Shown: positions 34,061 through 64,000 of the stretch, piece by piece
Numbering within the stretch: position 1 is the stretch's first letter
Layout of the letters: the number at the start of each line of letters is the position of its first letter
Translations under genes and position numbers: made by a program
Source of the DNA: Tribonema minus
Taxonomy: Eukaryota > Sar > Xanthophyceae > Tribonematales > Tribonemataceae
Assembly: GCA_017506865.1 (NCBI GenBank)
Contig: JAFCMP010000090.1
Coordinates: 1,178,001-1,242,000 of the forward strand
Reading direction: 5' to 3'
Length of the DNA stretch: 64,000 bases
Notes under the pieces: model-generated
Seen by the model: only the letters and a program-made list of their open reading frames with translations
Databases searched by the model: none
Told to the model about the DNA's origin: nothing

Positions 34061-37000
34061 ACGAGATCAACGAGGCCGGCCCTCCCTCGGGTGGATCCGT
34101 CGCTGTCGACTCGACCACTCTCACCACCGCCTCCGTCTCCGTTAGCATCGCTAGGCTGGGCACGGATGCCACCTACACCTACTACCTGAGCACCTCCGCA
34201 ACCAACGACGCCAACGGCACCCTGACCGACTCCTTCACCCTGACCGCCCAGAAGGCGTCGCAGCCGGTGGCTCTCACAGGACTCACGCAGAGCACCACCT
34301 ACTACGCCTGGGTGCGCGCCAAGAACAGTAGCACCGGAGTCTACCTCGTCATCTCCACGGCAGCATCGGTCACCACGCTGTCGCCCATCTCCTACACCGG
34401 AGGCACCATCACCAACGTCCTCATCAACGGTGGGAGCACGGGAGCCATCTCGGCCATCACCCTCGCTGGAGGTACCGGAAACTACACCCCGTCGTGGTCT
34501 TCCTCCGGGGGAGCCACCACCGGATTGAGCGGAGTGACGGCGAAGACGTCTCTCAAGGCCGGCACTTACACGCTCAGCGTCAGCGACGACGCCACCACGC
34601 CCACCACCAACACGTTCACATTTACCCTCACCGAGAACCCCGTCATCACGTACACCGGAGGAGCCATCACGAGCGTACTCATCAACGGAGGAGCCACGGG
34701 CCAGGTCTCCGCTCTCGTCCCCGCGGGCGGCAGCGGAACGGGTTATACCTACAGCTGGACGGGACCCTATGCCGTCGCCAACCCCACCGTCAACGAAACC
34801 AAGACTTCCCTCAGGGCGGGCACCTACTCGTGCGTCATCACCGACAATGTGGGCGCCACCAAGACCACCTCCTTCGCCGTCACCGAGAACCCCGTCATTT
34901 CGTACACCGGCGGCGTCGTCACCAACGTCCTCATCAACGGGGGGTCCACCGGTCAGATCACAGCTCTCGTACCCGCGGGCGGCAGCGGAACAGGTTATAC
35001 CTACAGCTGGACGGGCACCTACTCCGTCGCCAACCCCACCGTCAATGCTACCAAGACCGGGCTACAGGCAGGGATCTACTCTTGCGTCATCACGGACAGC
35101 GTCGGGGCCACCAAGACGGCCTCCTTCACCGTCACCGAGAACGCGGTCATCACGTACACGGGAGGAGCGGTCACGAACGTGCTCATCAACGGAGGATCTA
35201 CGGGCCAGATCACGGCGCTCGTACCCACGGGGGGTACGGGCAGTTACACCTACGCGTGGACGGGTGATTACGCGGTCACCAGTCCCACCGTCAACGCCAC
35301 CAAGACTTCGCTCAAGGCGGGCAACTACTCCTGTCTCATCACCGATACGGCAGGCGCCACCAAGACGGCTTCCTTCACCGTCACCGAGAATACCGTCATC
35401 ACCTACACGGGCGGAGTGGCCACGGACGTGCTCATCAACGGCGGGTCTACCGGTCAAATCACGGCCCTCGTGCCCTCGGGAGGTACGGGCACTTACACCT
35501 ACAGCTGGTCTGGAACGTATGCGGTTGCTAACCCGACCGTTAATGCGACCAAGACTGGTATGAAAGCGGGAACGTATTCTTGCGTGATCACGGACAGTGC
35601 AGGTGCCACCAAGACGGCCACAGTCACCATCGCCCAGAACCCCGTCATCTCTTATACGGGCGGTGCGATCACCAATGTCCTCATCAATGGTGGCTCTACG
35701 GGTGCGATCGCCGCACTGGTGCCAGCAGGTGGCAGTGGCACCGGGTACACTTACAGTTGGTCGGGGTCGTATGCGGTAGCCAACCCCACCGTCAACGAGG
35801 ACAAGACGGGGCTAAAGGCGGGAAGTTATTCGTGTGTCATCACCGATAGTGTGGGCGCCACCAAAACTGCTTCGATCGCTGTCACCGAAAACCCTGTCAT
35901 CACCTATACAGGTGGTGCTGTGACCAACGTGCTCATCAACGGGGGGTCTACAGGTCAGATCACCGCTCTGGTCCCGGCAGGCGGGAGTGGGACAGGGTAT
36001 ACTTATAGCTGGACGGGCACTTATGCAGTGCCCAGCCCTACCGTCAATGCAACCAAGACCGGACTGAAAGCGGGCACCTATTCATGTGTAATCACTGACA
36101 GCGTAGGTGCAACAAAGACCGCCTCCTTCACCGTCACAGAGAACTCAGTCATATCTTACACCGGAGGAGCGGTGACCAATGTGCTGATCAACGGCGGCAC
36201 CACAGGCCAGATTACTGCACTGGTGCCTTCAGGAGGAAGCGGAACTGGTTACACCTACTCCTGGACCGGAACATATGCGGTCACCAGCCCCACTGTGAAT
36301 GCGACCAAGACCGGAATGAAAGCCGGGACCTACTCATGTGTCATCACAGACAGCGTTGGTGCCACCAAGACGGCCTCGTTCACCATCACAGAAAACCCAG
36401 TCATTTCATATACAGGAGGTGTGGCTACGGATGTCCTGATCAACGGGGGGTCCACTGGCCAGATCAGTGCGCTAGTGCCTGCTGGAGGTAGCGGTACTGG
36501 CTACACATACAGCTGGACGGGAACGTACGCAGTTGCGAGTCCAACTGTAAACGCCACTAAAACTGGCATGAAAGCAGGCTCTTACTCATGTGTCATCACG
36601 GACAGCGTCGGTGCCACCAAGACCGTCTCTGTTACTATAGCGGAGAACCCCGTCATCACATACACTGGTGGCGCTGTCACTAACGTTCTGATCAACGGAG
36701 GGTCCACTGGCCAGATCACTGCACTACTTCCTTCAGGGGGCAGCGGGACAGGATTTTCATATAGTTGGACCGGCACGTACGCGGTGACCAATCCCACCGT
36801 AAACGAGACCAAGACAGGCCTCAAAGCAGGTTCCTACTCGTGTGTGATCACAGACAGCGTCGGGGCTACGAAGACGGCCTCCTTCACTATAACTGAAAAT
36901 GCTGCAATCACCTATACAGGTGGTGCTGTGACCAATGTGCTCATCAACGGGGGGTCTACAGGACAGATCACTGCACTTGTAGTAAGCGGAGGAACAGGCA

Positions 37001-50866: not shown

Positions 50867-51211
50867 TAGTACAATGGTGTGCATGCAACAGGCAGAAAAG
50901 CTGCGCAATGTGCATAGCTGCAGTCAAGAAGGAGGCAAGATGCAAGCCGGCTAATAAACACGCACTTTTATGAATAACCATGACATGGCAGCAGAAATGC
51001 AGAGCGCAGAAATGCAGAACGCAGAAAGTTGTGTATTGCTTGATCAATGCAGGTTACATTACAATCAACATACACTCTGGACCAAGCATACTATTTGCAA
51101 GCTATGTAAACGTCCGCTCAATGCAATCAACAATGGCAGTCGTCAGGTCGCCCCCTCCCCCTGTACATGGTGAAAGTCACCACCAAAATGACAACGGCGC
51201 TTGCCTGACTC
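50867..51211. other. Gap with a possible 67-aa frame
   Basis: Contains an AATAAA (50,953-50,958), a short duplicated block (G-C-A-G-A-A-A-T-G-C-A-G-A near 50,991-51,020), and a 67-codon frame from an ATG at 50,970 to 51,173 with a C-K-L-C pair. The frame has no recognised domain, so I do not call it as a firm gene. Confidence 0.35.
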
Positions 51212-51664
51212 TTACGCAGCGCTGTGGTACTCTCCGGCGCTGCGAGACTCTGCGGCACTGCGATAGTCTGCGGCACTGCGGTAATCTGCTGTGCTGTCAC
51301 TGTCACTGTCACTGCTGCTGAGGGCGGGGGCGCTGACAGCTGCCGCACGTACACGACTTCCTGCCGCAGTGGGGGTTTGGACTACCGGCAGTCTACGCCC
51401 ATTTGCAGCAGCGAAGGCTGCGGCTCGCGCTGCCCTCGCATTTGCCTGCTTGGGGTCAGACGCCGCTGCCTGCGTTTGAGTGGTATCGGAGTCACTACCG
51501 CTGTCATCGCTGCCGCTGTTATTGTCGTCGCTGCCGTCACTATTGAGGCCTTGCTCACCAACATCTTTTTTGGCAATGTGAAGGTGCTTGAGAAGAGCTC
51601 TCTTGAGCAGATTGACGTCGCAGCACTTGAAGTAGTAATTGCGAGAGCCGCTTGCATACTTCAA
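51212..51664 (-). pseudogene. Out-of-frame C-terminal part of the Gly/Arg-rich protein
   Basis: A 150-codon frame on the minus strand that opens with a TTG directly at the stop of the upstream frame (51,661-51,663). Its first ~35 residues look like the continuation of the upstream C-terminal domain (a K-Y-A-S-G-S-R stretch, then Y-Y-F-K-C-C-D-V). Then come an acidic Ser/Asp segment, an Ala-rich part, a second S-D-S-D run, and a tail of four D-Y-R-S-A-A-like hexapeptides. A one-base difference in the C5 run near 51,668-51,672 would join both frames. This could be a sequence error, a real break, or programmed frameshifting. Confidence 0.55.
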
Positions 51665-53304
51665 GTTGGGGGCAAGTGGTGCTTGGCCACATACATGTGA
51701 TACGCAACGCCCCTGCTGATCTGGCGGCTGACATTGTAGGCATTGCTCAGATAGCGCTGCAGCTTTACTTTAGGAGCAGGCGTGGCGTTGGCGATCAAGC
51801 TGTTGGCATACTCAGTGTGCAGCTCCGACACCACTATGCACTTGCCGCGCCTCTCGCATACACCGTTGCACTTCGTGGTGCGCGCTTTGATGCCGCGGCC
51901 TCCGCCACGACCCCAGCCCCCCCGACCTGCACCGCCACGCCCTCGCCCACCGCAGTCAGCGGCGCCGCGTCCTGGGGCCCCAGCGCGTTCTGCCCCCCCG
52001 CCCCCGCCATGCGCTGCGCGCCCCGCATCGCCATGCGCTGCTCCGCCGCGCCCCGCGTCGCCACGCCCAGGCCCGCCCCGCCCAGGCCCGCCCCGCCCAG
52101 GCCCGCCCCGCCCAGGCCCGCCCCGCCCAGGCCCCCCCGGCCCAGGCCCCGCAGGCCCAGGCCCGCCACGCGCCGCACGGCCGTGCTCTGCACTGCCACC
52201 GCCGGCCTTGCGTTTAGGATTACGCGAACGGGGGGAGGCAGCGGGAATGTTCGCCGCCTCGGCGCGACGCTGCCTTGCCCGAAGTGCTGCGGCGGCAGCT
52301 GAAGCGCGGGCCTCTTCAGCAGCGGCCTCGTGCTCTGCTGCTGTCCGGGCGCTTTGCGACCTGACGATGGCACTCCTTGCCTCTATGTTCGCCTTTCTCT
52401 CGTCTATACTGGCCACCTTCTCCAGCGTCTCCGCGGCCAATATCTGTGCCACTTGATTCGCCTTCGCGGCCAATATCTGTGCCACTTGATCCGCCTTCGC
52501 GGCGATGACTGCCGGATGTACGGCCACAGCGCCTTCCTGCTCTAAGGCTTTGGCCTTCGCCTCAGCTTCTGCCGTCTCGATGATCATGGCCACCTTGGCG
52601 CGAGCGCTCGCCCGCGCGTTCCTGCGCAGCTCCTCCTGCCTGCAGCGATTGGCGAGAGCGTCAGCGAGAGGCTTCGCGACAGAGGGATCCAGGTGGCGAA
52701 GGCCCTCAAATCCAAGAATGTTGTCGTCGCAGTCGGAGTTCTCGCTGTCGGTGTCGCCGCCGCCGTCCTTGTGCTCCTCTGCGCCACTCAGGTCGTTCTC
52801 GTCGTGGAAGCGAGCACCAGGACCAGGGTGTGCAGAGCCGCCGCCAGTCTCCTCCTCCGCAGCGGCGCTCATGAACTGCTGCCACGCAGCGATGCGAGGG
52901 TCGTACAAACCGGCTTTGTGGCGCTCCATCAGCGCCTTGGCCTCCAACAAGTTGCCTTCCAGATACGGTAAGTCTTCAGGCAAGCTGTCGTCGAACTCTC
53001 CGGCGGCTTCTGTCTGAGCGTGCTCGATGATGTGGAAGACAACAGCTACGGAGCCGTAAGGCCTCAAACGCTGGTGTACCTTTTTGTATCCGGGCTCGTC
53101 CATGGGGAGCTTCTTGAGCAGCTTGGACAGCTTGCTGGTGAGTGCATTGTCGGTCTGAAAGTTGTACAACAGCTTGATGAGATCGAAAAGGCTGTACACC
53201 ACGCGACAGTCGGGGTCAGGCTCAGCCTGAAGGCCAAGAAGTCTTTCAGTGGTGCCTCCAGAAGTCATGGCACCGTACCGGTTGTGGGCCGTGTAAATGG
53301 ACAT
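51661..53304 (-). CDS. Coiled-coil and Gly/Arg-rich protein (apparent frameshift at 3' end)
   Basis: 547 aa from the ATG at 53,304; the frame is open to 53,337 but only from a TTG. The N-terminal ~110 residues form a helical domain (Y-S-L-F-D-L-I-K-L-L). An acidic Ser/Asp linker is followed by an Ala/Glu/Arg-rich probable coiled coil (about residues 200-350, with a duplicated A-D/N-Q-V-A-Q-I-L-A-A). Next is an RGG/collagen-like region with five or more G-R-G-G-P units, then a C-terminal part with a C-N-G-V-C-x5-C motif. RNA binding or phase-separating behaviour is suggested by the RGG region. The C-terminal domain is cut by a stop and continues in another frame (51,212-51,664). No family is recognised. 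Confidence 0.7.
   Translation of the reverse strand: MSIYTAHNRYGAMTSGGTTERLLGLQAEPDPDCRVVYSLFDLIKLLYNFQTDNALTSKLSKLLKKLPMDEPGYKKVHQRLRPYGSVAVVFHIIEHAQTEAAGEFDDSLPEDLPYLEGNLLEAKALMERHKAGLYDPRIAAWQQFMSAAAEEETGGGSAHPGPGARFHDENDLSGAEEHKDGGGDTDSENSDCDDNILGFEGLRHLDPSVAKPLADALANRCRQEELRRNARASARAKVAMIIETAEAEAKAKALEQEGAVAVHPAVIAAKADQVAQILAAKANQVAQILAAETLEKVASIDERKANIEARSAIVRSQSARTAAEHEAAAEEARASAAAAALRARQRRAEAANIPAASPRSRNPKRKAGGGSAEHGRAARGGPGPAGPGPGGPGRGGPGRGGPGRGGPGRGGPGRGDAGRGGAAHGDAGRAAHGGGGGAERAGAPGRGAADCGGRGRGGAGRGGWGRGGGRGIKARTTKCNGVCERRGKCIVVSELHTEYANSLIANATPAPKVKLQRYLSNAYNVSRQISRGVAYHMYVAKHHLPPT
52064..52140. repeat. 15-bp GC-only tandem repeat inside the Gly/Arg-rich gene
   Basis: About five copies of CCCAGGCCCGCCCCG (plus-strand reading). 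They encode G-R-G-G-P units on the minus strand and are nearly perfect, so the copy number is probably unstable. Confidence 0.85.
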
Positions 53305-53373
53305 GTGACATTGCTTCCACGCTGCTGCCGTCAGCAATGGTGGTGAGTGACGTCAGCCAGACCAGATGGCACC

Positions 53374-53541
53374 GTCCACGTCTCCCCCACGTCCGCCCCC
53401 CGTCCCCACGTCTCCCCCACGTCCGCCCCCCCATCCGCCCCACGTCCACCCCACGTCCACCCCACGTCCACCCCACGTCCGCCCCACGTCACCCCCACGT
53501 CCACCCCACGTCCGCCGCACGTCCCCGCCCCCCCGCGTCCC
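53374..53541. repeat. ~11-bp C-rich tandem repeat (G-rich on the minus strand)
   Basis: About 12 copies of a CCCCACGTCCA/G-like unit, with some longer C-runs. The minus strand has many runs of four to seven G, so G-quadruplex formation is possible. It lies between the starts of the divergent Gly/Arg-rich gene and the dioxygenase-like gene. Pro/His-rich frames across it are low complexity and not called as genes. Confidence 0.85.
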
Positions 53542-53586
53542 TGTCCGAGCGGCGTAGTCGGGCAACTTGTTAAGGAGGCGTAAACA

Positions 53587-53812
53587 ATGCCATGCGGACA
53601 CAGCAGTGGAGTGCCTCACAAGGTGCACACACTGGGCCGAGCGTACAGGGGTGTCAACGCTGTCTTTCAATCTCTGAAGATGAGAGTGAGAGCTATGCTG
53701 AGGCGGAAGGAGACCAAGATGCTACTCACAGGCTACCGCGATACACGCTGTTCCGTGATGGCAAAGACCTGCTGTGACCGATCTGGGGACGCGGGCGACA
53801 GCCTTGCAGCAG
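53587..53812 (+). other. Possible 5' exon of the dioxygenase-like gene
   Basis: Two overlapping frames begin here with ATGs at 53,587 and 53,592. The 53,592 frame is acidic (S-E-D-E-S-E-S-Y) and resembles the acidic N-terminus downstream; the 53,587 frame reaches the better donor at 53,813. Either could be joined in frame to the acceptor at 53,892. The choice cannot be made without cDNA. Confidence 0.3.
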
Positions 53813-53825
53813 GTGACTGACACAC

Positions 53826-55061
53826 ATGCCACAGGTGCTGCAGCAAGAAGTAACGTGTTGTCTAAAATACTCTCTGCCTCATGCATGTGTAGGTGACAAC
53901 GATGCCAGGAGCGATGAGGACACCGACGAGTATATCACTTGTACGGACGGGTCTGAGGATGAGGAGAGCGACGTGGAGTTGGAGTGCGGCTCCGGCTTTG
54001 CGCTTGCGCGTAGCGTGGCGTCGCGCAACCTCGGCAGAGCCATCGCGCCTGGCACACGCGATCACACGGATGTATTTGACTACCTGTCCTGGAAGTGTCT
54101 AGGAGGGGGCGGTGGTGCGCGCAGGGAGCAAAGCGGTCCGCATGCTGCGCTCTCCCATGTGGTCCGCTGTCATCATGACATCCGCTTTGTGGTGTCTGAT
54201 TGCTATCCCATTGCGGCTAATCACACCAACTATCACCAGGCCTTGCCCAAGTTCATGCGGCAAGATGGGGAGCACTATGTGCCAAAAGACAAGCGCTGGA
54301 ATGTCAACTCCCTGCGTGTGCGGGGGCACGCCTGCGTGACTCGCAGCTGCGTCGTCGCGGAGGCTTCCACGCTGCACATACTGGCAGTGTACACTGCGGG
54401 TGATTACGTTGAACGCGCACTGCAATTCAGGTTTAGAAAAGTGCATTCAGCGGCCACGAGATCTGGGTTCTTGGCCCGGAAGAGCATTCACGTCATAGGC
54501 AGCGCACGCACGAACTACAAGGGCGTTAAGCCTGAGTACTACGTGAAGACGCTGACCGCATCGTCAGCAGATCGGGACGTGCTTCAGGTTGCAGCGCACA
54601 AATTGACGGAGCTGGAGCGCTCCCTCAGCCCCGCACTGTATGCATTCAAGCTTCAGAATGTCAGCAACATTCATCCTGGCTTATTGCCAGGGTTTCCGGC
54701 CACACAGTGCAACGCGTTCATGATGGGGGTCAGCAAGGGGTATGCGTCTGCACCGCATAGAGATAAGAGCGCAGTCGAGTTGATTGCGTGGGACATGCGC
54801 GACGCACGCTCAATCGGACCCGAAGGTCTAGGTTTCTCATTGTACAGCTGTCGCATCGTACTGTTGCTGTCGGCGCACCGCAAGGCAAGTGTGTTAGTTG
54901 CGGGAGATGTCGTACATGGCACACTGTGCCCCCCGCGCCCGCGCCAGCACCGTGCGATTGGCATTGTGCTCTCACAAAAGGCCAACATGCTGACACCCGC
55001 ATCTAAGGAGCATCTCAGTATCCTGCGCCAAGACCCTGCGGCTGTGTTTGGCAAGGGTTGA
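53826..55061 (+). CDS. Probable 2OG-Fe(II) dioxygenase (Tet/JBP-like)
   Basis: 411 aa as an open frame. After an acidic N-terminus (residues 23-55), the C-terminal third shows the pattern of this superfamily: H-x-D (H311, D313 in P-H-R-D), a distal His in G-D-V-V-H-G-T (H364), and a basic R-x-x-x-x-R cluster near 371-376 for the co-substrate. In Tet/JBP enzymes this fold oxidises 5-methylpyrimidines in DNA; the assignment is an inference from motif spacing. The 5' end is unsure. A good acceptor (TGTGTAG, ending 53,892) and donor (CAG/GTGACT at 53,813) would splice in frame from an upstream frame and drop the first 22 residues. A weaker donor at 53,755 also keeps frame. Confidence 0.6.
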   Translation: MPQVLQQEVTCCLKYSLPHACVGDNDARSDEDTDEYITCTDGSEDEESDVELECGSGFALARSVASRNLGRAIAPGTRDHTDVFDYLSWKCLGGGGGARREQSGPHAALSHVVRCHHDIRFVVSDCYPIAANHTNYHQALPKFMRQDGEHYVPKDKRWNVNSLRVRGHACVTRSCVVAEASTLHILAVYTAGDYVERALQFRFRKVHSAATRSGFLARKSIHVIGSARTNYKGVKPEYYVKTLTASSADRDVLQVAAHKLTELERSLSPALYAFKLQNVSNIHPGLLPGFPATQCNAFMMGVSKGYASAPHRDKSAVELIAWDMRDARSIGPEGLGFSLYSCRIVLLLSAHRKASVLVAGDVVHGTLCPPRPRQHRAIGIVLSQKANMLTPASKEHLSILRQDPAAVFGKG

Positions 55062-55339
55062 GTCGTTCAGCTAGTGCTGGTCAACACAGCGCACTCTGTA
55101 AATACTATCGGTGTGCACGCAAACCTGCTGCTGCGCCAGCTTCCATGTGCATGCCTACGTGTGTGATGCCACATTACATGAGGGTGTTCCGACATGAATG
55201 CAATGACTTAGTTGCGCTGCGCGACAGACGGGGTTGCAGTCAGTGCAATGCGTTGCTTACATGTTTAGCTCGTGTGTGAGCCTGTGCCTTGCAAGAATTT
55301 CGATCTGGTGCAGTACAGGATGTGATCAGTTGCAATAAT
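55062..55339. other. Gap without clear gene
   Basis: About 280 bp after the dioxygenase-like gene. Frames here start from TTG and have no domain. I see nothing else before the 33-bp repeat. Confidence 0.4.
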
Positions 55340-55455
55340 GCAGAATGCATGTGCTGTTTTCAATTTCATGTAGCAGAATGCATGTGCTGTTTTCAATTTC
55401 ATGTAGCAGAATGCATGTGCTGTTTTCAATTTCATGTAGCAGAATGCATGTGCTG
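55340..55455. repeat. 33-bp perfect tandem repeat, ~3.5 copies
   Basis: Units start at 55,340, 55,373, 55,406 and 55,439 (the last partial). They begin GCAGAATGCATGTGCTG and end TTTCATGTA. The array lies ~130-245 nt before the chosen ATG of the vWA gene. Its length is a multiple of three and the frame stays open through it, but that frame only begins with TTG, so a 5' untranslated or promoter repeat is more likely than coding. Confidence 0.92.
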
Positions 55456-55585
55456 CGCAAAACGCAGGGCTGCAGCTAGCACGCTGCGTGCGTACACATT
55501 TAGCGTGCATGTGAGGCAGCAGCAACAGCTATGTTTCACGGGCCAAAGTAATAATCTGTGCGATCATCAAAGCGTACCGGAAAAC

Positions 55586-56344
55586 ATGAAGCTGCCTCCC
55601 GTCGCACCACCCGCAATGCACTTCATCAATGCTAAAGGCAGCAACGTGCCGCAGGAGTTTGCCGTTGCAGCACGTGCCAACCCCGATGTCATTCCACAGA
55701 TGGCAGAGACACCTAAGGAACTGCAGGCTTTACAGAAAGAGGCGCTGGCAAGGCAATATGTCATCATTGTCGATATGTCTGGCTCCATGGGGGCAAGGGA
55801 TGGGAAAGGCACGCGCTGGGACTCAGCCCGTTCTGCAGTAGAGAAAATGGTGGACACGATTTTTGCGTACGACGTGGATCATACTGTCCCTCTCTACCTG
55901 TTTGACAGCGAGGTCACATTTATCGGTGAGCTCACCAAGGCATCGCAGGTCAAGGCTGTTTTCAAGGAGTTTGGTCCAAGGGGGACGACAGGTTTGGGTG
56001 CTGCTCTGCGAGAGGCGCTAAGCACTTATGCTGGCACGAAACGGCCCAACTACCAGCTCGTGCCGGGCACAACCTTCATTGTACTGCTTGACGGCGGCGC
56101 AGATGATGAAGCTGATGTAATGCGCGTACTCCAGGAGTTTGCAGACCCCAGAAATGGCTACATTGAAAATCACACGCAAATAGCTCTTTCCTTCGTGCAG
56201 GTCGGCGATGACGCGTCAGCATCCGCTTTCCTACAGAAGCTCGATGACAGCATCACACCAGACATTTGCGACTTCAAACGTGATGACATTCTAACACAAT
56301 CGGGGGGACTAGACAGGCTTCTGCATGAAGCCATATTCGATTAG
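55586..56344 (+). CDS. von Willebrand factor A (vWA) domain protein
   Basis: 252 aa from the ATG at 55,586; the open frame extends upstream through the 33-bp repeat but has no good start there. A short Pro-rich N-terminus leads into a full vWA domain: MIDAS D-M-S-G-S-M (D63, S65, S67), the G-T-T-G-L-G threonine (about residue 135), and L-L-D-G-G near 170. MIDAS folds bind a divalent metal and mediate protein-protein contacts. Cytosolic vWA proteins also occur in ubiquitin, chaperone and TerF-like systems. No signal peptide or membrane segment is visible. Confidence 0.85.
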   Translation: MKLPPVAPPAMHFINAKGSNVPQEFAVAARANPDVIPQMAETPKELQALQKEALARQYVIIVDMSGSMGARDGKGTRWDSARSAVEKMVDTIFAYDVDHTVPLYLFDSEVTFIGELTKASQVKAVFKEFGPRGTTGLGAALREALSTYAGTKRPNYQLVPGTTFIVLLDGGADDEADVMRVLQEFADPRNGYIENHTQIALSFVQVGDDASASAFLQKLDDSITPDICDFKRDDILTQSGGLDRLLHEAIFD

Positions 56345-56539
56345 TGCACAAATCTAAAAGACTCCATACAAACCAAATGCAAAGGTACACCTCACGCAGC
56401 ATGCGTTCTGTCAAATGCTGCGCAAACCACTCTGCATGTGCACACGCTTGCGCCTAATTCAATCATGCATGCATCAAAAGCAGACAGCAATGCACTCTTG
56501 TGCCTCCAACAAAGAACACAGTGCATTTATACAGTGTGC

Positions 56540-57022
56540 TCAGGCACTAGCATTCTCTTCCGCCTGAAGGCGCGCAGCCAATGCACGGTCCTGTGCAATG
56601 ACCCAGGCGTTCTGCACTAGTGCTGGCTGACTAGAGCCACCATGCGCACCACCATTCTCAATATCAACTACTGCTACAGCGGCAATGGGAGCACCTGCTG
56701 CTAAGCTTGCTGCGCCGCCTCCACTTGAAGACCCGCCTCCACTCAACCCCCCAGCTGCTCCACCACCATGCTTGGCCCGTGCTCGCTTCGCACTGCTGTC
56801 CGGCGCCTTCGCTGCTGCGCTTCGCTTAGGCGCCACCTTCACCTTGATTTCACGAATGAGCGTGAATTTTGCCTTGCACAATGGACAGGTGGGGTTGCGT
56901 CCGTGCTCTTGCTCATTCTGCTGCCACTTGAAGATGCAAGAAAAGCAAAACTCGTGTTGACAGTGTAGCACCCCCACCTTATTCCGCGGTGTCTCGTAGC
57001 AGATGCTGCAGTCCTCTGGCAT
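56540..57022 (-). CDS. C3HC4 RING finger protein, nuclear type
   Basis: 160 aa from the ATG at 57,022. The N-terminal RING has ligands C5, C8, C21, H23, C26, C29, C46 and C49 (C3HC4). A basic stretch with K-R-A-R-A-K (a likely nuclear signal), a Gly/Ser-rich linker and an Ala-rich helix near the C-terminus follow. There is no membrane segment, unlike the RING-H2 gene at 40.1 kb. A RING at the extreme N-terminus is seen in several viral E3 ligases that target nuclear proteins; that role is inferred. The frame is open upstream to 57,208, but that part is encoded by a TATA-like repeat and is probably not translated. Confidence 0.82.
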   Translation of the reverse strand: MPEDCSICYETPRNKVGVLHCQHEFCFSCIFKWQQNEQEHGRNPTCPLCKAKFTLIREIKVKVAPKRSAAAKAPDSSAKRARAKHGGGAAGGLSGGGSSSGGGAASLAAGAPIAAVAVVDIENGGAHGGSSQPALVQNAWVIAQDRALAARLQAEENASA

Positions 57023-57078
57023 CCTCCTTGCCGAACGATGGGGTAGAAGAGTGAAGGCTGTGAAGGTTTCCGCCCTCA

Positions 57079-57180
57079 GTATATTCCCCAACGCTGTGTA
57101 TATATCCAACCGGTGTGTATATTCCCCAGCACTTGTATATGCCCCTCCGTCCTGTATATTCCCTCGTGTATATTCGCCTA
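57079..57180. promoter_or_regulatory. Cluster of TGTATATTCCCC-like elements
   Basis: At least five spaced copies of a (T)GTATAT(T)CCCC-like word lie between 57,079 and 57,180 (minus strand GGGGAATATACA). Each contains a TATA-like core. They sit 57-160 nt before the RING ATG and about 360-460 nt before the H3 gene on the other strand. Confidence 0.6.
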
Positions 57181-57536
57181 CTCTGCTTCCGCTATTTGCG
57201 CTCTTCAAACACTAGCAGACTGCTGAGGCTAGCGCCAAGGGCCAGAGCCCTGGTGCTGATGCAGTGGCCAGCCTCTCTGCTCCTGCGTATCTGCCCTCAC
57301 TGTGTCTGGGAAGTGATCGATGCGGTGGGCTCTGCTTTCTGGCGCAGCAGCTGTCCTCGGATACCCGAGCTCTGATTCGGTGACCAGCACGCTCGCTCTT
57401 GAACCCCGGTGAATCCCGAGACTTCGTTCAAAACTTCAAGTGCAGCAAGCAGCGCGGAGGCCTCCACGTGGCGACACAGTGCAAGAAACGCCACGTGGCA
57501 TAATTCAAAGGTGACGTTTGCACCCATTACGACAGC
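57181..57536. other. Intergenic region upstream of histone H3
   Basis: About 350 bp with no supported gene. It holds a GCATAATTC TATA-like element (about 57,498-57,506) some 35 nt before the H3 ATG. Confidence 0.4.
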
Positions 57537-59299
57537 ATGGCGCGCAGCAAGGGAGCTCCAGTGCGCAACGGTGCAGCAGCGGCAGTGCGAGGGTGAGTGC
57601 TGCTACCGCCACTGAAGCATTGTGCATGCGTCTTGACCTTGTCTCACCGTCATTTGCATCAACGCACCCGTGGAGCACCTGCTGCAGCAGGGCACGGCAA
57701 CGGAGACACAAGCCGGGAGAGAAGGCTCTGAAGGAGATCCGTACTTATCAGCGCAGCACGGAACTGCTGATACGGAAGCTGCCGTTCGCTCGCTTGGTGA
57801 GCTCATGGCAACATTATGTTTTGAGCACTTGGTCCGCCAGTCCAAATGGCCATGTCACAGCCTGCCTAGCGTCTGTCGATGTCAAAGCAAACCAGCCTCC
57901 ATCAGACCAGGCTGTAACGCATATTCCTTTCTCTCTGCATAGCTTTGATGTAAGTTTATAGTAAGCTCTCACAATGTCTGCGTCCCTTTGTCGCTGGTCC
58001 AATCTGCCAACGCCAAACTCACCCATATGAATTGCCACAGTGTCCTGCCCTATAGCCCCGTGCCATTTCGTAATCATGCTCAGACGCTTTGCGACATCTG
58101 CACTGACATCATCCACCGACTTGTAGTGATCATTTCGCCCCCCTTGCAGGCAGAAATTGTCGCTATCATATGTATGAAATTGAATGCCCAGGCATTTGTC
58201 TGCTCCAGCACCTGGTAGTGAAGATTTATTGGGGTACACAATGGGCACACTCCAAATGTTACCCGCATTGTTGGGTTGCAAAAGCACGACCCGCGTTGCG
58301 CTTACTGCACGTATGCCTTCATAACCAGCACTGTTAATTTTCCTGGTGAGATCTATGCACGCAGCAGTTGCGGCTGCGCTGCCCAGGCCAAACTTTGCAG
58401 TCGGTTCATTCAGCACCTCGAATATCACCTGTTGCTGTGTGTATGCATTGTACTTGGCTGCTATCCTTCTCCATAGTTCCTTAAACTTTGTGTTAAAGGC
58501 AGCAGAGCCATCATAATGTTGGAAGAGCCAGTCTTCGTGGTGCGCATTGATGATGACTGTCAAGCCCAGCTTAACAGCAAAGCCTATTGCATCGTCTAGC
58601 AGATGCATGAATTCTGGGTCGTCCAGCATACAGACGTGTGCGGTGCCTGGATACCAAGTTACTGGGATGCGCACGTGGCCAAAGCCCTTTGACTTCACAG
58701 CAGACAGCCATGGTCTGATTTTGTTTGTGTCCCTGCTGTGCTGCTTGCTCTCGAAGACCTGACCGAGGTTAATCCCTGTTCCTATGCTAGTCAAAACCTG
58801 TGTTGCAGTCTTTGCCATGTTTACAAGAGACACAACATAATATGGCTCGGGGCTGCGCATCTCACCAAACAATGTGCATGCCTCGTGTTGCAGGTGCGAG
58901 AAGTGCAGGAGATGTTCACACCGCGTGGCGTTTTGTACCGATGGGCGGCCGATGCGCTGTTGGCGCTTCAGGTCAGTACACTTATTGCATTGCATGACAG
59001 TACACCTCCAAGTGAACAACGCCTCGCCAGTGGACCTGCAAAGTCTTCCACGCAGATGAGGTGGTCAGCCGGTCTTGCCGGTCTGCACCATTGTGCTCAA
59101 CGTGGGCCGCAGCTGCACTGAAGGCAGAGCAAGCAACTAAAATCGAAATCCTCTTGTGCATTTGCAGCACGCAGCAGAGGCGCACCTAGTGGGACTTTTT
59201 GAGGACGCAAACCTGGCGGCGATACATGCAAAGCGGGTGACAATTCAACCTCGCGACATGCAATTAGCTCGGCGTATCAGGGGGCGAATGCGTGAATAA
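57537..59299 (+). CDS. Divergent histone H3 in four exons
   Basis: Exons 57,537-57,592, 57,688-57,796, 58,894-58,971 and 59,168-59,299 join in frame to 124 aa. All introns are GT-AG with good donors (GTGAGT, GTGAGC, GTCAGT). The product keeps the H3 fold: an H-K-P-G segment, then [34 protein letters not shown] and Q-L-A-R-R-I-R-G. The tail starts M-A-R-S-K, so a K4-like lysine remains, but it is about 12 residues short and lacks the A-R-K-S motifs of K9 and K27; the K56 position is Arg. AATAAA overlaps the stop (59,295-59,300). A role in viral chromatin is inferred. Confidence 0.9.
57593..57687 (+). other. Histone H3 intron 1
   Basis: 95 nt, GTGAGT donor. The acceptor is CAGCAG, a tandem NAGNAG site: both AGs keep the frame and would differ by one residue. 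Confidence 0.8.
57814..58818 (-). CDS. Glycoside hydrolase family 5 (cellulase-like), nested in an H3 intron
   Basis: 334 aa from the ATG at 58,818; the frame is open further up but would enter H3 exon 3. The GH5 catalytic set is complete: [10 protein letters not shown] (46-55), H93-H94, acid/base E138 in L-N-E-P, H215 and Y217, nucleophile E267 in G-E-F-G, and W304. GH5 enzymes cleave beta-1,4-glucans or mannans. No signal peptide is visible, so it may be packaged or released by lysis; that is an inference. A minus-strand TATA-like CCATATTATG lies ~20-25 nt before the ATG, still inside the intron. The stop lies 17 nt from the H3 splice donor. Confidence 0.92.
58833..58845 (-). promoter_or_regulatory. 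TATA-like box of the nested GH5 gene
   Basis: CCATATTATGTTG on the minus strand, within H3 intron 2 and about 20-25 nt before the GH5 ATG. Confidence 0.5.
58972..59167 (+). other. Histone H3 intron 3
   Basis: 196 nt, GTCAGT donor and TTTGCAG acceptor, with a CAACTAAAAT branch-like sequence and a T/C-rich stretch before the acceptor. It interrupts H3 exactly after the A-L-Q motif. Confidence 0.8.
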
Positions 59300-59440
59300 A
59301 GACGCTCAGGTGAGCAAGTATGGTGGAAGCAGTGCTAACACTGCACATCATCAAGGCAAATAATGCCATGGTCAAGTTGCTGGTTTTTAGCGAGGAACAA
59401 ATATATGCTGCATATCTAATAATTATCTGCGAATCTTGCA

Positions 59441-59866
59441 ATGGCCGCGACAGCGCAGCCCACAGCCTCAGTCTCACAGCAAGCCGACCACATGAGTCGC
59501 ATAGGCTCTGTATCTGTGTTTGGCTCTACGTGGCGAACGTGTCCAGTGGTGAGCGTAGCGGCCGAGCGAGACATTGTGGCTGCGATCTGCAGGGAGCACG
59601 GGATGCCAGCGTTCTACTTTGAGGCAGCGCTGGTGCTGTGGACACGTTTGAAGCACGCATACAGCTGCGAAACATTTGTGCATGGCCCTGAGCGCTATGT
59701 CGCAATCTGCTTGGGGCTGGCCATAAAGTGGAGCGGGCCCGCAGAGATGACCTTCAAGTTCTGCAGGCTCAACATTATGCGCCAGTATTGGAAATACATG
59801 ACAGTATCGCAGTGGCAACTCGAAGAGCTGCGAATGTTGGAATTGCTAAATTGGGAATTTTTTTGA
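59441..59866 (+). CDS. Short cyclin-like protein
   Basis: 141 aa from an ATG. The second half resembles a cyclin box: an R-Y-V-A-I-C-L-G-L-A-I-K-W helix, then a helix with L-E-E-L-R-M-L-E-L-L-N-W-E, as in the conserved E-x-x-L/I-L-x-x-L-x-W signature. It ends right after this signature, so only the N-terminal cyclin fold is present, as in small PHO80-type or viral cyclins. The end is a T7 run (59,858-59,864), where a length change would extend the protein. A TATA-like AAATATATG lies about 35 nt upstream. A role in pushing the host cell cycle is inferred. Confidence 0.6.
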   Translation: MAATAQPTASVSQQADHMSRIGSVSVFGSTWRTCPVVSVAAERDIVAAICREHGMPAFYFEAALVLWTRLKHAYSCETFVHGPERYVAICLGLAIKWSGPAEMTFKFCRLNIMRQYWKYMTVSQWQLEELRMLELLNWEFF

Positions 59867-59929
59867 AACAGTGTTCAGTGTTCATCGAAACTTATCTTGT
59901 TACATGCTGCTGCTGCCAGTGCTGCTGTC

Positions 59930-60754
59930 ATGAAACTCATTGATGTGTTTTGTTTCAATGGCGAGCCAATACTAGAGCTCAGGCTAGAGTATCTACAAGA
60001 TGTTGTGGATGAGTTTGTGCTGGTGGAGAGCAAGTATACCTTCTCTGGCAAGGTCAAGGACACATTTTACTGTGATGATTTAGTACAGCATCCCAAAGTC
60101 ACTGTTCTCAGACTCGATTATGCACCGCCTGTAGCGGATGAAGAATGGTGTCGTGAACGCAGCGGCTCTTCTTCTTTTATGGAAGAAGGGTGCATGGACC
60201 ACTGGTTCCGTGAGCAGCATCAGCGAGACTACCCAAAATCATACATTGTGAACAAATACGCTGATGAGGATTACATTGTCGTCTGCAGTGATGTAGATGA
60301 GATCCCTCGCAAAGAGTTGCTTGTGTCACTCAAGCAGCATGGAAACGGCCAGCTTCATACTCCTATCTACTTACACATGGCAATGCTAATGTACAACATG
60401 GGTTGGCAAACTGATGAGCAGTGGTTGCGGGCCTTTGTGATTAACAAAGAGGGTTTCTGCAACGCAGCTTCAGTAGACGAGATGCGCCGCGCAGAGCCGT
60501 ACCGCGTCGCACCTAACGGGGGCTGGCACTGTAGTTACTTTTTGAATAGCCGGGACTTGGCACGGAAAATCCAAGCATTCTCACATCAAGAGTATAACAA
60601 ACCAGAGTACACGGACACTGCGCATTGCCAAAGGTGTCTCTTGAGTGGCAAAGATGTGCTCGGGCGTGGTGAGCTGAAGGCATACACAGGCCAGGTGCCG
60701 GAGCTTTTTATAAAATTCAACGAGAAAATGTTGTTTCTGCAAAAATTCAGCTAA
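59930..60754 (+). CDS. Glycosyltransferase family 17 (beta-1,4-GlcNAc transferase-like)
   Basis: 274 aa from the ATG at 59,930 (the upstream frame starts only with TTG). It opens with the family's K-L-I-D-V-F-C-F-N-G-E pattern and has E-L-R-L-E-Y-L, the metal- and nucleotide-binding D-V-D-E-I-P (121-126) and the G-W-H-C-S motif. MGAT3, the eukaryotic member, adds bisecting N-acetylglucosamine to N-glycans. Here no membrane anchor is seen, so it may act in the cytosol or virus factory on viral glycans. Giant viruses often carry their own glycosyltransferases. It follows the cyclin gene by 63 bp on the same strand. Confidence 0.9.
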   Translation: MKLIDVFCFNGEPILELRLEYLQDVVDEFVLVESKYTFSGKVKDTFYCDDLVQHPKVTVLRLDYAPPVADEEWCRERSGSSSFMEEGCMDHWFREQHQRDYPKSYIVNKYADEDYIVVCSDVDEIPRKELLVSLKQHGNGQLHTPIYLHMAMLMYNMGWQTDEQWLRAFVINKEGFCNAASVDEMRRAEPYRVAPNGGWHCSYFLNSRDLARKIQAFSHQEYNKPEYTDTAHCQRCLLSGKDVLGRGELKAYTGQVPELFIKFNEKMLFLQKFS

Positions 60755-60892
60755 GGTTTCGATTTGCAGAGTTAAATTCAAGAGAAATTCGTATATTTAA
60801 ACATTAAGCGCTCTGATTCGCGCAGTAAATATTGCAGATGTGAAGTGTGCACACACCATCACTCTCACACACACACCGCTGACACAAGCAAT

Positions 60893-62260
60893 ATGGTCGC
60901 CACACAGTCCAAGACACGCGCAGAGCTGAACGATGAGGTGAAGGTGCGGCTGCACTCGAGGCAAAAGAAGCGAATAACAGAGGGGACGTACACATACGAC
61001 AAGGCCGTCAAGGAGGCAGAGAACCACGGATTCAAAGTCATAGAGGACGAAGGCGCATGGGATGCGCAGGCACCGGTTCAGCCCTACAAGCGGAAGCTTC
61101 GCATCGTTGGCAGGAACCCGATAACGTTGAACGACATCATGAGCGGCCACCACCGATCAGATGCTCCGTCAGAGGAAGAGAGGGCAGCGACAAATGCCAA
61201 GAGGTCACAGACAATGATAGATCTTGACATGGGCCAGAGGCACTGGTACGAATCGAGTGCTATCGCAGCCGCGATGCTCATGCTTGATCCAGATGGACTA
61301 GTGGAGACTGCACCCCTCCCAGACGGTTTAGGAGGTGACCTTCAGATGCGATTGAAGGCAAGCAAAAACCCATTGTACGCCGGCTGCCAGGCCAAATCTG
61401 GCACCGGGGGAGAGGGCAAGCGGGTTAACTTGAGTGTGAAGAAAGAACAAGGCGAGGAAGGAGGGTGTTATGAGGGACACATTCTTCTCGGCATAGTTTT
61501 CACCATCGCTGACAGAGATGCAGCTATTGAAGAAATGAACACATTTGACGCCGTCCCGGAGGTCAAGGTGGAGCAGATATTCCTATACCGGTCTGCCGCC
61601 GACCTGCCTTGCCCCAGCTTAGCACCTTCCCCCAGGCGTGATAAGAATGACAAGTACGGCGACCACCGCTACGTTCACGGCTTCGATGACGAAGCACGGC
61701 TGTGCCGCATGCAGACGATGCTGCTCAACTTCGTGCAGGAGAGGATGATGTGGCAGAGTGAGCAACTGTGGTTTGCCCTGGGGCCCGGGACCCTAAACAC
61801 GCGCGTGTCCACAGACCATGCATCAGAGGTGCTCAACATCAAGGCTCTGGCTGACCTTGTCGGGTTTCAGTCGCTGCGAGCACCAAAGCGACAGAATGAG
61901 ACAGTGGATGTCGTGTGGAGCTTATACGCCCAGGACATACGCATCAGTGTGAAGACGGCCTCCATCAACGGTGCTGGTTTTCAGTTCAACCTGGGTACGC
62001 ACCCCCACGATGAACACTGCGATCTGGTGTTTGCGTTCTACAAGGATGAAAACGGAAACCGCACAGGTGTGTCGGTCATATCAGCCAAGGATGTTTATGT
62101 GGAACGCGAAGTCCAAGTAGAGCACGAAAAGTTCTACTGGTCCAGCACCACCAATGAGGATGTTCTGTGCAACAAGGTCGACATTTCGGAGCCTGACGCC
62201 ATGGAGAACTTGGTTGCGCTGGTGATGTGTCTCATGACTCCAGACGTGGAATACGATTGA
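60893..62260 (+). CDS. Unknown protein, possibly two PD-(D/E)XK-like nuclease domains
   Basis: 455 aa from the ATG at 60,893 (the frame extends upstream only from GTG). A basic N-terminal ~100 residues is followed by two regions with similar outlines. The first has P-D-G-L-G-G-D-L-Q-M-R and then C-Q-A-K-S. The second has a leading Glu helix, T-V-D-V-V-W and then I-S-V-K-T-A-S, followed by H-C-D-L-V-F-A-F. Each gives an Asp plus x-K on neighbouring strands, as in restriction-like nucleases, but the acidic residue two before Lys is Gln or Ser. This is a structural guess. A TATA-like G-T-A-A-A-T-A-T-T lies ~65 nt upstream. Confidence 0.6.
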   Translation: MVATQSKTRAELNDEVKVRLHSRQKKRITEGTYTYDKAVKEAENHGFKVIEDEGAWDAQAPVQPYKRKLRIVGRNPITLNDIMSGHHRSDAPSEEERAATNAKRSQTMIDLDMGQRHWYESSAIAAAMLMLDPDGLVETAPLPDGLGGDLQMRLKASKNPLYAGCQAKSGTGGEGKRVNLSVKKEQGEEGGCYEGHILLGIVFTIADRDAAIEEMNTFDAVPEVKVEQIFLYRSAADLPCPSLAPSPRRDKNDKYGDHRYVHGFDDEARLCRMQTMLLNFVQERMMWQSEQLWFALGPGTLNTRVSTDHASEVLNIKALADLVGFQSLRAPKRQNETVDVVWSLYAQDIRISVKTASINGAGFQFNLGTHPHDEHCDLVFAFYKDENGNRTGVSVISAKDVYVEREVQVEHEKFYWSSTTNEDVLCNKVDISEPDAMENLVALVMCLMTPDVEYD

Positions 62261-62883
62261 CCGGTCAAGGGCAGATAAAAATCTATGATGCCCCCTCAAT
62301 ATGGTGCCAAATGACATGTTTGCAAAGGATTCTATTTTTAACGTCTGTGTCTGTTGCCATTGCTGCACGGAGAAAAACTCGTGGTGTGCACTCTGTGAAG
62401 GCTATTTGGTCGTAACTCTTGCCCTGTGCAGCAACAGCAGATGCACAAGCAGCACATCAGACTTTCACTGCACCATGCAACAGCAAGGCTTTCCATATGC
62501 AACATGAATTATGCAGAGGTTTTTTTCGATTTGCACAGATAATTAATCGTGTACAGGTAGGTTTTCGATTTGCACAGATAATTTATTGTGTACAGGTAGG
62601 TTTTACGGTTTGCACAGATAATTTATTGTGTACAAGGTAGGTTTTCGATTTGCACAGCAAATCAATCATGCAGAGCTAGGATTCGAAATGAATTCATTCT
62701 GTTGGATTCGATTGCAACAGCAACGGCACGCAAATTAAATTCAGCATGAAGATTCGTAGTTCGAACAATGCCTTGAATCTGCATTTAATTGATATCTGTG
62801 CTCATGAATCTTTTGTGCACAACAAATAAATACTGTCGTGAGCATCTGCACCTGTGAGCATCACTCTCTTCCATACAAGCACC
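62261..62883. other. Non-coding AT-rich gap before PCNA
   Basis: 623 bp with no supported gene. It contains the 39-bp repeat array, further GAATTC and TTCGAT words (62,680-62,790), and a CAAATAAATAC TATA-like element (about 62,822-62,832) some 55 nt before the PCNA ATG. Confidence 0.55.
62518..62665. repeat. ~39-bp AT-rich tandem repeat, four copies
   Basis: Core TTCGATTTGCACAGATAAT with a following T-G-T-G-T-A-C-A-G-G-T-A block; the cores begin near 62,525, 62,564, 62,605 and 62,643. The last copy is degenerate. It lies between the nuclease-like gene and PCNA. The related word TTTCGATTTGCA also occurs once at 60,755. Confidence 0.8.
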
Positions 62884-64000
62884 ATGTCAGAATCTGGGCA
62901 GCAAGGAGCGTCTGACACAAAGGCGCGTGGAAGCGCTTCTCTGCCAGGCTGTGATTTGGGGTCGGTCGATGACCTGGATCCGGATTGCATTCTCTGCATG
63001 CGCTCAAGTCAGACAAGGTACATGGCACTCTAGCCTTGTAAGCATATGCCACAGCAGCACATGTTTCACACTAACTAACACGCTTTCCTTTGCTTGTGAC
63101 GTGTGCAGCCAATGGAGGCTGCTGGTGGACTTCCTCAAGGACCTCATAACTGAGTGCCCGATCTCATTCAACCAGGATGGCATGAAGCTGATCTCACTGG
63201 ACCCCATCAAGGTCGCCCTACTGCACCTCCAGGCCAAGTCTGAGTTCTACTACTGCAAATCGGAAATCACAATTGGCATGAACATCACAGCGCTGTACAA
63301 GATGCTGCGCAACCTGACCACGGGGGGTTATATGCTGGAGTTCAGCATGTCCAGCAAGGAGATGGATGTGCTGTCCATCCAGCTGATCAACTCTGACAAG
63401 CGCACGTGCACTTCCAACAAGCTGAAGCTGCTCAAGCTGCCGCAGGAGACGCTCATCATACCTTCCACCAACTTCCAGAGGGTCCTCTCCATCCCCAGCG
63501 CAGATTTGCAACGGCATGTGAGTGCAGCTGCATGGGCACACTGCTTTGTGTGTATGCGTCACTGGTCCATTGATTGCTGATATGACCTTGCTGCTTTGTC
63601 GCACTTTCCGAGTAGGGAGCTCACACACTTCACATCCCCCATATTCACTTGCAGGTTCGCGAGCTGGCGGCTCTGTCCAATAAGATCAAAATCAAGAGCA
63701 CTGCTGATCAGCTGATCCTCTCTGCGGAGGGGACTATGGGCAGTTCAGAGATCGTCATCCGCCCCACTGCTTCTGGAATGCACTGGATCAGCATAGATAA
63801 CAATCAGGAGAGTGAGGGTGGGGGTGACGCGGTGGTGGAGGGGGTTTACTTTTCAAAGTTCTTGGAGAGGTTTTCTCGCCCTCTCGACCCCATCTGCGAG
63901 ATATTCGTCAAGCAGAACTACCCTCTCGTCCTGCGGTATGTGTTGAGCACAGCTACCGTTCGACTGGTCATAGCCCCCGTTCAGGAAGACGAAGGCATCG
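62884..64000 (+). CDS. PCNA sliding clamp, three exons (3' partial)
   Basis: Exons 62,884-63,017, 63,109-63,517 and 63,655 to the window edge join in frame. Exon 1 gives an unusual ~44-aa N-terminal extension; the clamp begins after it with L-V-D-F-L-K-D-L and D-P-I-K-V-A-L. Exon 2 ends inside the first domain's K-L-L-K-L region and linker, and exon 3 covers the second clamp domain, including Y-P-L-V-L-R-Y and L-V-I-A-P-V near the normal C-terminus. PCNA rings tether DNA polymerase and repair enzymes. Both introns are GT-AG, and intron 1 has a CTAAC branch site. The stop codon lies beyond the window. Confidence 0.92.
63018..63108 (+). other. PCNA intron 1
   Basis: 91 nt, donor AAG/GTACAT and acceptor GTGCAG. 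It contains C-A-C-T-A-A-C-T-A-A-C, a strong branch-point sequence, followed by a pyrimidine-rich tract. Confidence 0.88.
63518..63654 (+). other. PCNA intron 2
   Basis: 137 nt, donor CAT/GTGAGT and acceptor CTTGCAG, between codons. There are in-frame stops inside it, and the next exon resumes the clamp with V-R-E-L-A-A-L-S. Confidence 0.88.

Follow-up and report, generated by a model that had tools for sequence, protein, structure and literature searches.

An antisense GH5 cellulase gene inside an intron of a centromeric-type histone H3 gene, in a probable xanthovirus-like element of Tribonema minus

Genes that lie complete and on the opposite strand within the intron of another gene are known from cellular eukaryotes. 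For mirusviruses, more than 2,000 genes within spliceosomal introns, mostly unannotated, are reported in the accessible part of the text, and 334 of them encode endonucleases (PMC12768974). According to the accessible parts of two further papers, xanthophyte genomes including that of Tribonema carry genes of xanthoviruses, a sister group (PMC13236599, PMC12993054). Elements of Ectocarpus are given there with a G+C content of 51.5-52.5%, and one Ectocarpus element with introns in 14 genes (PMC13236599).

A stretch of 64,000 nt of Tribonema minus DNA (the window; bases 1178001-1242000 of contig C90, JAFCMP010000090.1) was analysed within an assembly of 158 Mb and 554 contigs. In-frame splice models yielded a histone H3 gene at 57537-59299 (forward strand), with four exons that encode a protein of 123 aa. 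P0121, a database record of 123 aa titled 'histone H3 [Tribonema minus]', is the identical protein, and it matches an exon 2 start at 57691. Alternative in-frame acceptors of intron 1 are located at 57675 and 57687 (exon 2 from 57676 or 57688) and leave intron 2 unaffected. Intron 2 starts with GTGAGC at the donor and ends with TTGCAG at the acceptor. Without splicing, the histone reading frame meets a stop at 57961, so that splicing is required for a full-length histone. An uninterrupted antisense ORF of glycoside hydrolase family 5 (GH5), complete from ATG to stop, lies entirely between the donor and the acceptor of intron 2 and takes up 1005 of its 1097 nt (92%). A previous sequence-only reading had placed a GH5 gene antisense in this 1097-nt intron, with its stop 17 nt from the donor and its ATG 75 nt from the acceptor; coordinates, strand and both spacings were found to be exact (Table 1).

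Table 1. Positions of the features discussed, counted from the first base of the window
Feature	Position	Strand	Basis
CenH3-type H3 exon 1	57537..57592	+	in-frame splice models; P0121 is the same protein
H3 intron 1, donor GTGAGTGC, acceptor 57690 as in P0121	57593..57690	+	splice models, P0121
H3 exon 2	57691..57796	+	splice models, P0121, C179 comparison
H3 intron 2, 1097 nt, GT-AG, phase 0	57797..58893	+	intron position common to C179, C540, C1 and C346
GH5 (Cellulase) gene, 334 codons plus stop, within H3 intron 2	57814..58818	-	ORF; Pfam PF00150, E 2.4e-29
E267 codon, probable nucleophile glutamate (GEF motif)	58018..58020	-	alignment with solved GH5 enzymes
E138 codon, probable acid/base glutamate (NEP motif)	58405..58407	-	alignment with solved GH5 enzymes
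75 nt from GH5 ATG to H3 acceptor, containing a TATA-like string; promoter role unsupported	58819..58893	-	shuffle comparison
H3 exon 3, covering loop 1 and the beginning of helix 2	58894..58971	+	splice models
H3 intron 3	58972..59167	+	splice models
H3 exon 4 including stop	59168..59299	+	splice models
Block collinear with C179 (81-92% identity) apart from 60767-62643, which has no counterpart there	51164..64000	.	nucleotide comparison

The GH5 gene had also been described as full-length with its catalytic residues, and this was borne out. When aligned with GH5 enzymes of solved structure, N137-E138 coincides with the NEP motif and E267 with the GEF motif. Among 14 aligned sequences, one of them that of the window, N137, E138, E267, R50, H93, H215, Y217 and W304 were invariant; R50, H93, N137, H215, Y217 and W304 are residues typical of GH5. 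With the profile match and both catalytic glutamates present, the protein was assigned to GH5. A chance ORF was ruled out by the Pfam match (PF00150, E 2.4e-29) together with the conservation of the gene at other loci. An NCBIfam profile search gave no match, and a secretion signal was not obvious by eye. In a tree built by a quick method from 33 of 120 listed relatives and nine Tribonema rows, the protein grouped with other Tribonema and environmental sequences, away from the bacterial rows. One relative on contig C112 (62% identical) lies downstream of a frame that resembles a Rieske-type oxygenase by eye; for another from Tribonema minus (P0002, 73%), no place was found in this assembly.

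The 75 nt upstream of the GH5 ATG had been credited with a TATA-like box belonging to the gene. The string CATATTATG is present there, and a role as the gene's own box was not supported: likeness to the GH5 upstream regions at C179b, C90b and C112 stayed within chance (475, 130 and 391 of 2000 shuffles, respectively, scored as high).

Cellulose is present in Tribonema walls, and the substrate of the predicted enzyme is probably a wall glucan. The accessible part of PMC12801979 mentions rigid walls that were treated with enzymes including cellulase.

Judged by its sequence, the H3 protein is a centromeric-type H3 (CenH3). In comparison to canonical H3, loop 1 is longer by three residues, a tryptophan stands at the start of helix 2, and the N-terminal tail is divergent, all of which are CenH3 traits. 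The best two PDB matches were H3/CENP-A chimeras (E 1.5e-37); since canonical H3 scored almost equally (5.6e-36), the PDB match alone supports CenH3 weakly. A tree of 44 rows was calculated from 27 of 120 listed relatives, five Tribonema CenH3-type rows and 12 stretches of canonical-type H3 that were picked from the Tribonema genome; the fragmentary copy at 378 kb on contig C179 was left out. The histone of the window was placed with brown algal relatives and diatom cse4 at a support of 100/100, in a bootstrap that had not settled. The 12 canonical-type stretches fell apart from the CenH3 side, and P0161, which is not from Tribonema, sat on the canonical side. Support for the five Tribonema CenH3-type rows together was 91/80 alone and 95/89 with the long-branched P0230 included. 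An assignment as canonical or generic viral H3 was rejected on the basis of this tree.

Another CenH3-type copy, on contig C540, encodes 144 aa, with a longer tail like that of the brown algal proteins and with long introns. Neither capsid nor VLTF3 was matched on this contig, and the copy looks like the host's own CenH3 gene. It has intron positions 2 and 3 in common with the histone gene of the window, as well as an intron in the N-terminal tail. Because of these matching intron positions and the CenH3 grouping, the histone gene of the window looks like a gene of the host lineage that was taken along together with its introns.

The joint reading that we prefer, with a probability of roughly 0.65, is that of an integrated xanthovirus-like virus bearing a host-lineage CenH3 gene with introns and an antisense GH5 gene as cargo, both genes working; as parts of it we infer the direction of transfer, the splicing, the separate transcription and the roles of both proteins. 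Giant-virus marker genes were searched for in the whole assembly and in 14 control genomes. The capsid family PF04451 gave 10 matches in the Tribonema genome and VLTF3 (PF04947) gave eight; none of the control genomes had a match to either. On C90, a second GH5 gene (GH5b), VLTF3, capsid and the CenH3/GH5 locus are located at 905.5, 1016, 1095 and 1236 kb, and on C179 at 268, 388, 470 and 591 kb, in identical order and orientation and with spacings of 111, 79 and 141 kb (C90) and 120, 82 and 121 kb (C179). Capsid and VLTF3 are thus found on the same contigs in conserved order, as in an NCLDV element, at 141 and 219 kb, respectively, from the CenH3/GH5 locus of C90. Collinear DNA of the two contigs flanks the locus on both sides; further to the left of the collinear block on C179, 1.1 kb was compared and no match was obtained. 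The G+C content between 38 and 64 kb of the window was 49-57% per 2-kb step, with one step at 64%. Since the giant-virus markers of C90 stand in an order that is repeated on C179, an endogenous xanthovirus-like element, known here from marker genes on the contig and from collinearity, is the most likely setting.

The rest of the window and some related stretches yielded further observations. The first 37,000 bases have about 60-63% G+C, and both strands contain long ORFs. Positions 34624-37184 are occupied by a 252-nt tandem repeat, and its translation matches SprB repeats (E 1.7e-29). DNA of the 24-29 kb region recurs at 64-75% identity on C181, C223, C490, C59, C112, C179 and again on C90, and this recurrence suggests giant repetitive genes of elements, not host flank. 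A perfect 33-nt tandem repeat of 3.5 copies (55340-55455) is placed inside an open frame that ends in a VWA-domain gene. The stretch 60767-62643, which is missing from C179, contains an ORF of 471 aa (60845-62260) without a Pfam match and represents a gene-sized presence/absence difference. On C223, two canonical-type H3 stretches (L022 at 1010443, L023 at 809644) lie in open frames of 610 and 574 aa, and one of them adjoins a VLTF3 gene (C223:808952); they are possibly further virus-borne or fused H3 genes.

Among the alternatives, the one that survived best explains the locus as ordinary algal DNA, in which a host CenH3 gene with a nested GH5 gene was duplicated and the virus markers are unrelated neighbours on the contig. 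The CenH3 type and the introns of algal lineage agree with it. Likewise, Pfam revealed no virus-only family among the 19 scanned ORFs and models of the window, and no true relative was recovered in IMG/VR scans with the GH5 protein, the CenH3, three neighbouring proteins and the GH5 alignment, of which the single-protein scans reach close relatives only; the sole CenH3 match (L009) rested on the nine-residue string GVLYRWAAD. Ordinary algal DNA is nevertheless unlikely, given the four loci, whose order and orientation agree between the two contigs, the collinearity of 51164-64000 of the window with C179 at 81-92% identity, and the unequal divergence of gene pairs. The dS was 0.153 for the nested GH5 gene and 0.417 for the other GH5 pair of the same two contigs, which is not expected from a single recent duplication of algal DNA and would better fit separate recombining viruses. 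In the sequence-only reading, the H3 gene was called probably viral: the viral setting was supported by markers and collinearity, whereas a viral-type histone was not, as the protein groups with algal CenH3 genes.

The two proteins were compared between C90 and the copy at 591 kb on C179. In GH5, 57 substitutions were counted, 32 at third codon positions, and with a dN of 0.032 the ratio to dS was 0.21. Over 372 nt, the spliced histone sequences differed by 15 substitutions, of which 11 fell on third positions; two of the 123 residues were changed, and exon 3 encodes both of them. Introns 1 and 3 were about 13% and 10% different, respectively. From these values, both proteins look to be under constraint.

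This pattern bears on a second and rather improbable alternative, namely a dead or unspliced histone gene that did no more than offer a landing place to a functional GH5 gene. Two other copies would fit such decay. The C179 histone gene (L002, C179:589814-593815) contains a tandemly repeated unit of about 320 bp, in which exon 3 occurs a second time along with the first ~51 GH5 codons, and because exon 3 is duplicated it may make no normal histone; the copy at 378 kb on C179 is a fragment. The C90 gene itself, however, has every splice site intact and a whole reading frame, and its exons changed mostly at third positions and hardly in protein while introns 1 and 3 diverged more.

Six CenH3-type loci were recognised in the genome; weak H3 matches on C68 (E 8.4e-5), C538 and C55 were outside this count. 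Intron 2 holds GH5 at three of the six: on C90, at 591 kb on C179 and in the fragment at 378 kb on C179. The 591 kb copy of GH5 is 94% identical in nucleotides to that of C90, with no indel in 1005 nt. In the fragment, which is about 83% identical, exon 2 with its donor is kept, and so is the stop of GH5, at equal spacing. At the other three loci, the intron position is kept without GH5, in an intron of 1930 nt on C540, 150 nt on C1 and 148 nt on C346. Intron 3 is present in the C90, C179 and C540 copies and missing in those of C1 and C346. A search for GH5 remnants in the C540 intron yielded weak tblastn pieces only (best E 0.016; pieces outside the intron reached 0.004). The stretches on C1 (L024, 65 kb) and C346 (L027, 854 kb) have about 71-72% G+C, and no capsid or VLTF3 was among the matches listed for these contigs. 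Next to the C1 copy lies a relative of the window gene at 45.7-46.7 kb. In protein searches, C90 gave the histone without GH5 and C179 gave GH5 without the histone, as if one gene had been annotated per nested pair.

As three sister genes carry a GH5-free intron at the same position, the intron is taken to be older and GH5 to be a later cargo. The common position also speaks indirectly for the predicted splicing across GH5. The simplest order of events suggested by these loci is the intron first and then a single GH5 insertion, before C90, C179 and the fragment split. The check proposed beforehand, a search for H3 relatives with an empty intron 2, was thus answered positively within the same genome, and the proposal that genes can be gained in this way without breaking others was supported by the empty introns together with the constraint on both proteins.

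A mobile unit, in which intron and gene move together as in the spliceosomal homing introns of mirusviruses, is very improbable. The large number of intron-borne genes described above and the MING-1 class, found at one conserved site according to the accessible text of PMC12768974, make such a unit conceivable. GH5 is a glycoside hydrolase and no nuclease, however, so that the endonuclease expected of a shintron is missing and a homing intron was rejected. In addition, no CenH3-type match lies close to the GH5 relative on C112. The presence of the intron position without cargo in the three sister genes indicates that the cargo moved and not the intron. Although the locus is known from a single assembly, an assembly or collapse artefact that put GH5 into the intron could be dismissed: the same structure recurs at two other loci, which diverge by about 6% and 17%.

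Under the preferred reading of a virus-borne CenH3 gene with GH5 cargo, a phaeovirus-related (xanthovirus-like) giant virus would have integrated into the Tribonema minus genome, having taken the CenH3 gene from the algal lineage as genomic DNA with its introns kept. In the ancestor of the C90 and C179 copies, a GH5 glucanase gene would have been inserted in reverse into intron 2, sparing the donor and the acceptor and little else. The nuclear spliceosome would cut the entire GH5 gene out of the CenH3 pre-mRNA together with intron 2, and GH5 would be transcribed from the opposite strand as a unit of its own, so that two genes share a single stretch of DNA and neither protein is broken. The start of the GH5 transcript is predicted within the 75 nt that precede the ATG or slightly further upstream, and the message would extend into exon 2 or further. 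CenH3 and GH5 transcripts should therefore overlap in antisense. The glucanase would most likely loosen the host wall at entry or release, and the histone would most likely act in the chromatin of the virus or of a latent element. A more far-reaching and doubtful proposal is that the captured CenH3 lets a latent viral chromosome be segregated or chromatinised in the manner of the host, and that the antisense nesting acts as mutual exclusion, with the histone made in latency and the cellulase at release.

If the preferred reading is true, a giant virus gained an enzyme gene by way of a spliceosomal intron acquired with a host gene, and introns can be safe landing sites beyond mirusviruses. A centromeric-type histone in a virus-like element also raises the question of whether centromere-like chromatin is formed or chromosome segregation is disturbed in latency. 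With filled and empty forms of the intron in one genome, the history of the insertion can be read directly.

Compared with known systems, the histone is like stramenopile CenH3/CENP-A in its clade, in the helix 2 tryptophan and in the longer loop 1; it differs in its shorter N-terminal tail and in the existence of several copies beyond the C540 locus. The GH5 protein agrees with endoglucanases such as GH5_4 (6xsu) and Endoglucanase H (4u3a) in the catalytic glutamates and conserved residues, and unlike them it groups with Tribonema and environmental sequences, apart from the bacterial rows. Cellular nested genes likewise comprise a complete opposite-strand gene in the intron of another gene, whereas here both genes belong to a virus-like element, and the genome has the intron in filled as well as in empty form. 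The phaeovirus and xanthovirus elements are alike in NCLDV markers, a G+C content near 52%, some spliced genes and a stramenopile algal host; unlike here, CenH3 or an intron-nested gene is not mentioned in the accessible parts of their descriptions (PMC13236599, PMC12993054). A virus-borne centromeric histone was not described in the titles and abstract openings searched, with subscription papers mostly outside this scope. The intron-harboured genes of mirusviruses (shintrons, MING-1) resemble the locus in that a protein gene lies in a spliceosomal intron of a gene of a nuclear large DNA virus. Mirusviruses are another virus group, however; in contrast to the nucleases or MING-1 and the virion genes described in the accessible text of PMC12768974, the cargo here is a glycoside hydrolase and the intron-bearing gene codes for a centromeric-type histone. 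The cargo on C90 is antisense, and the words 'antisense' and 'opposite strand' are absent from the main text of that paper. Already known, then, are genes in mirusvirus introns; new is an antisense cellulase gene inside a probably virus-borne centromeric histone gene.
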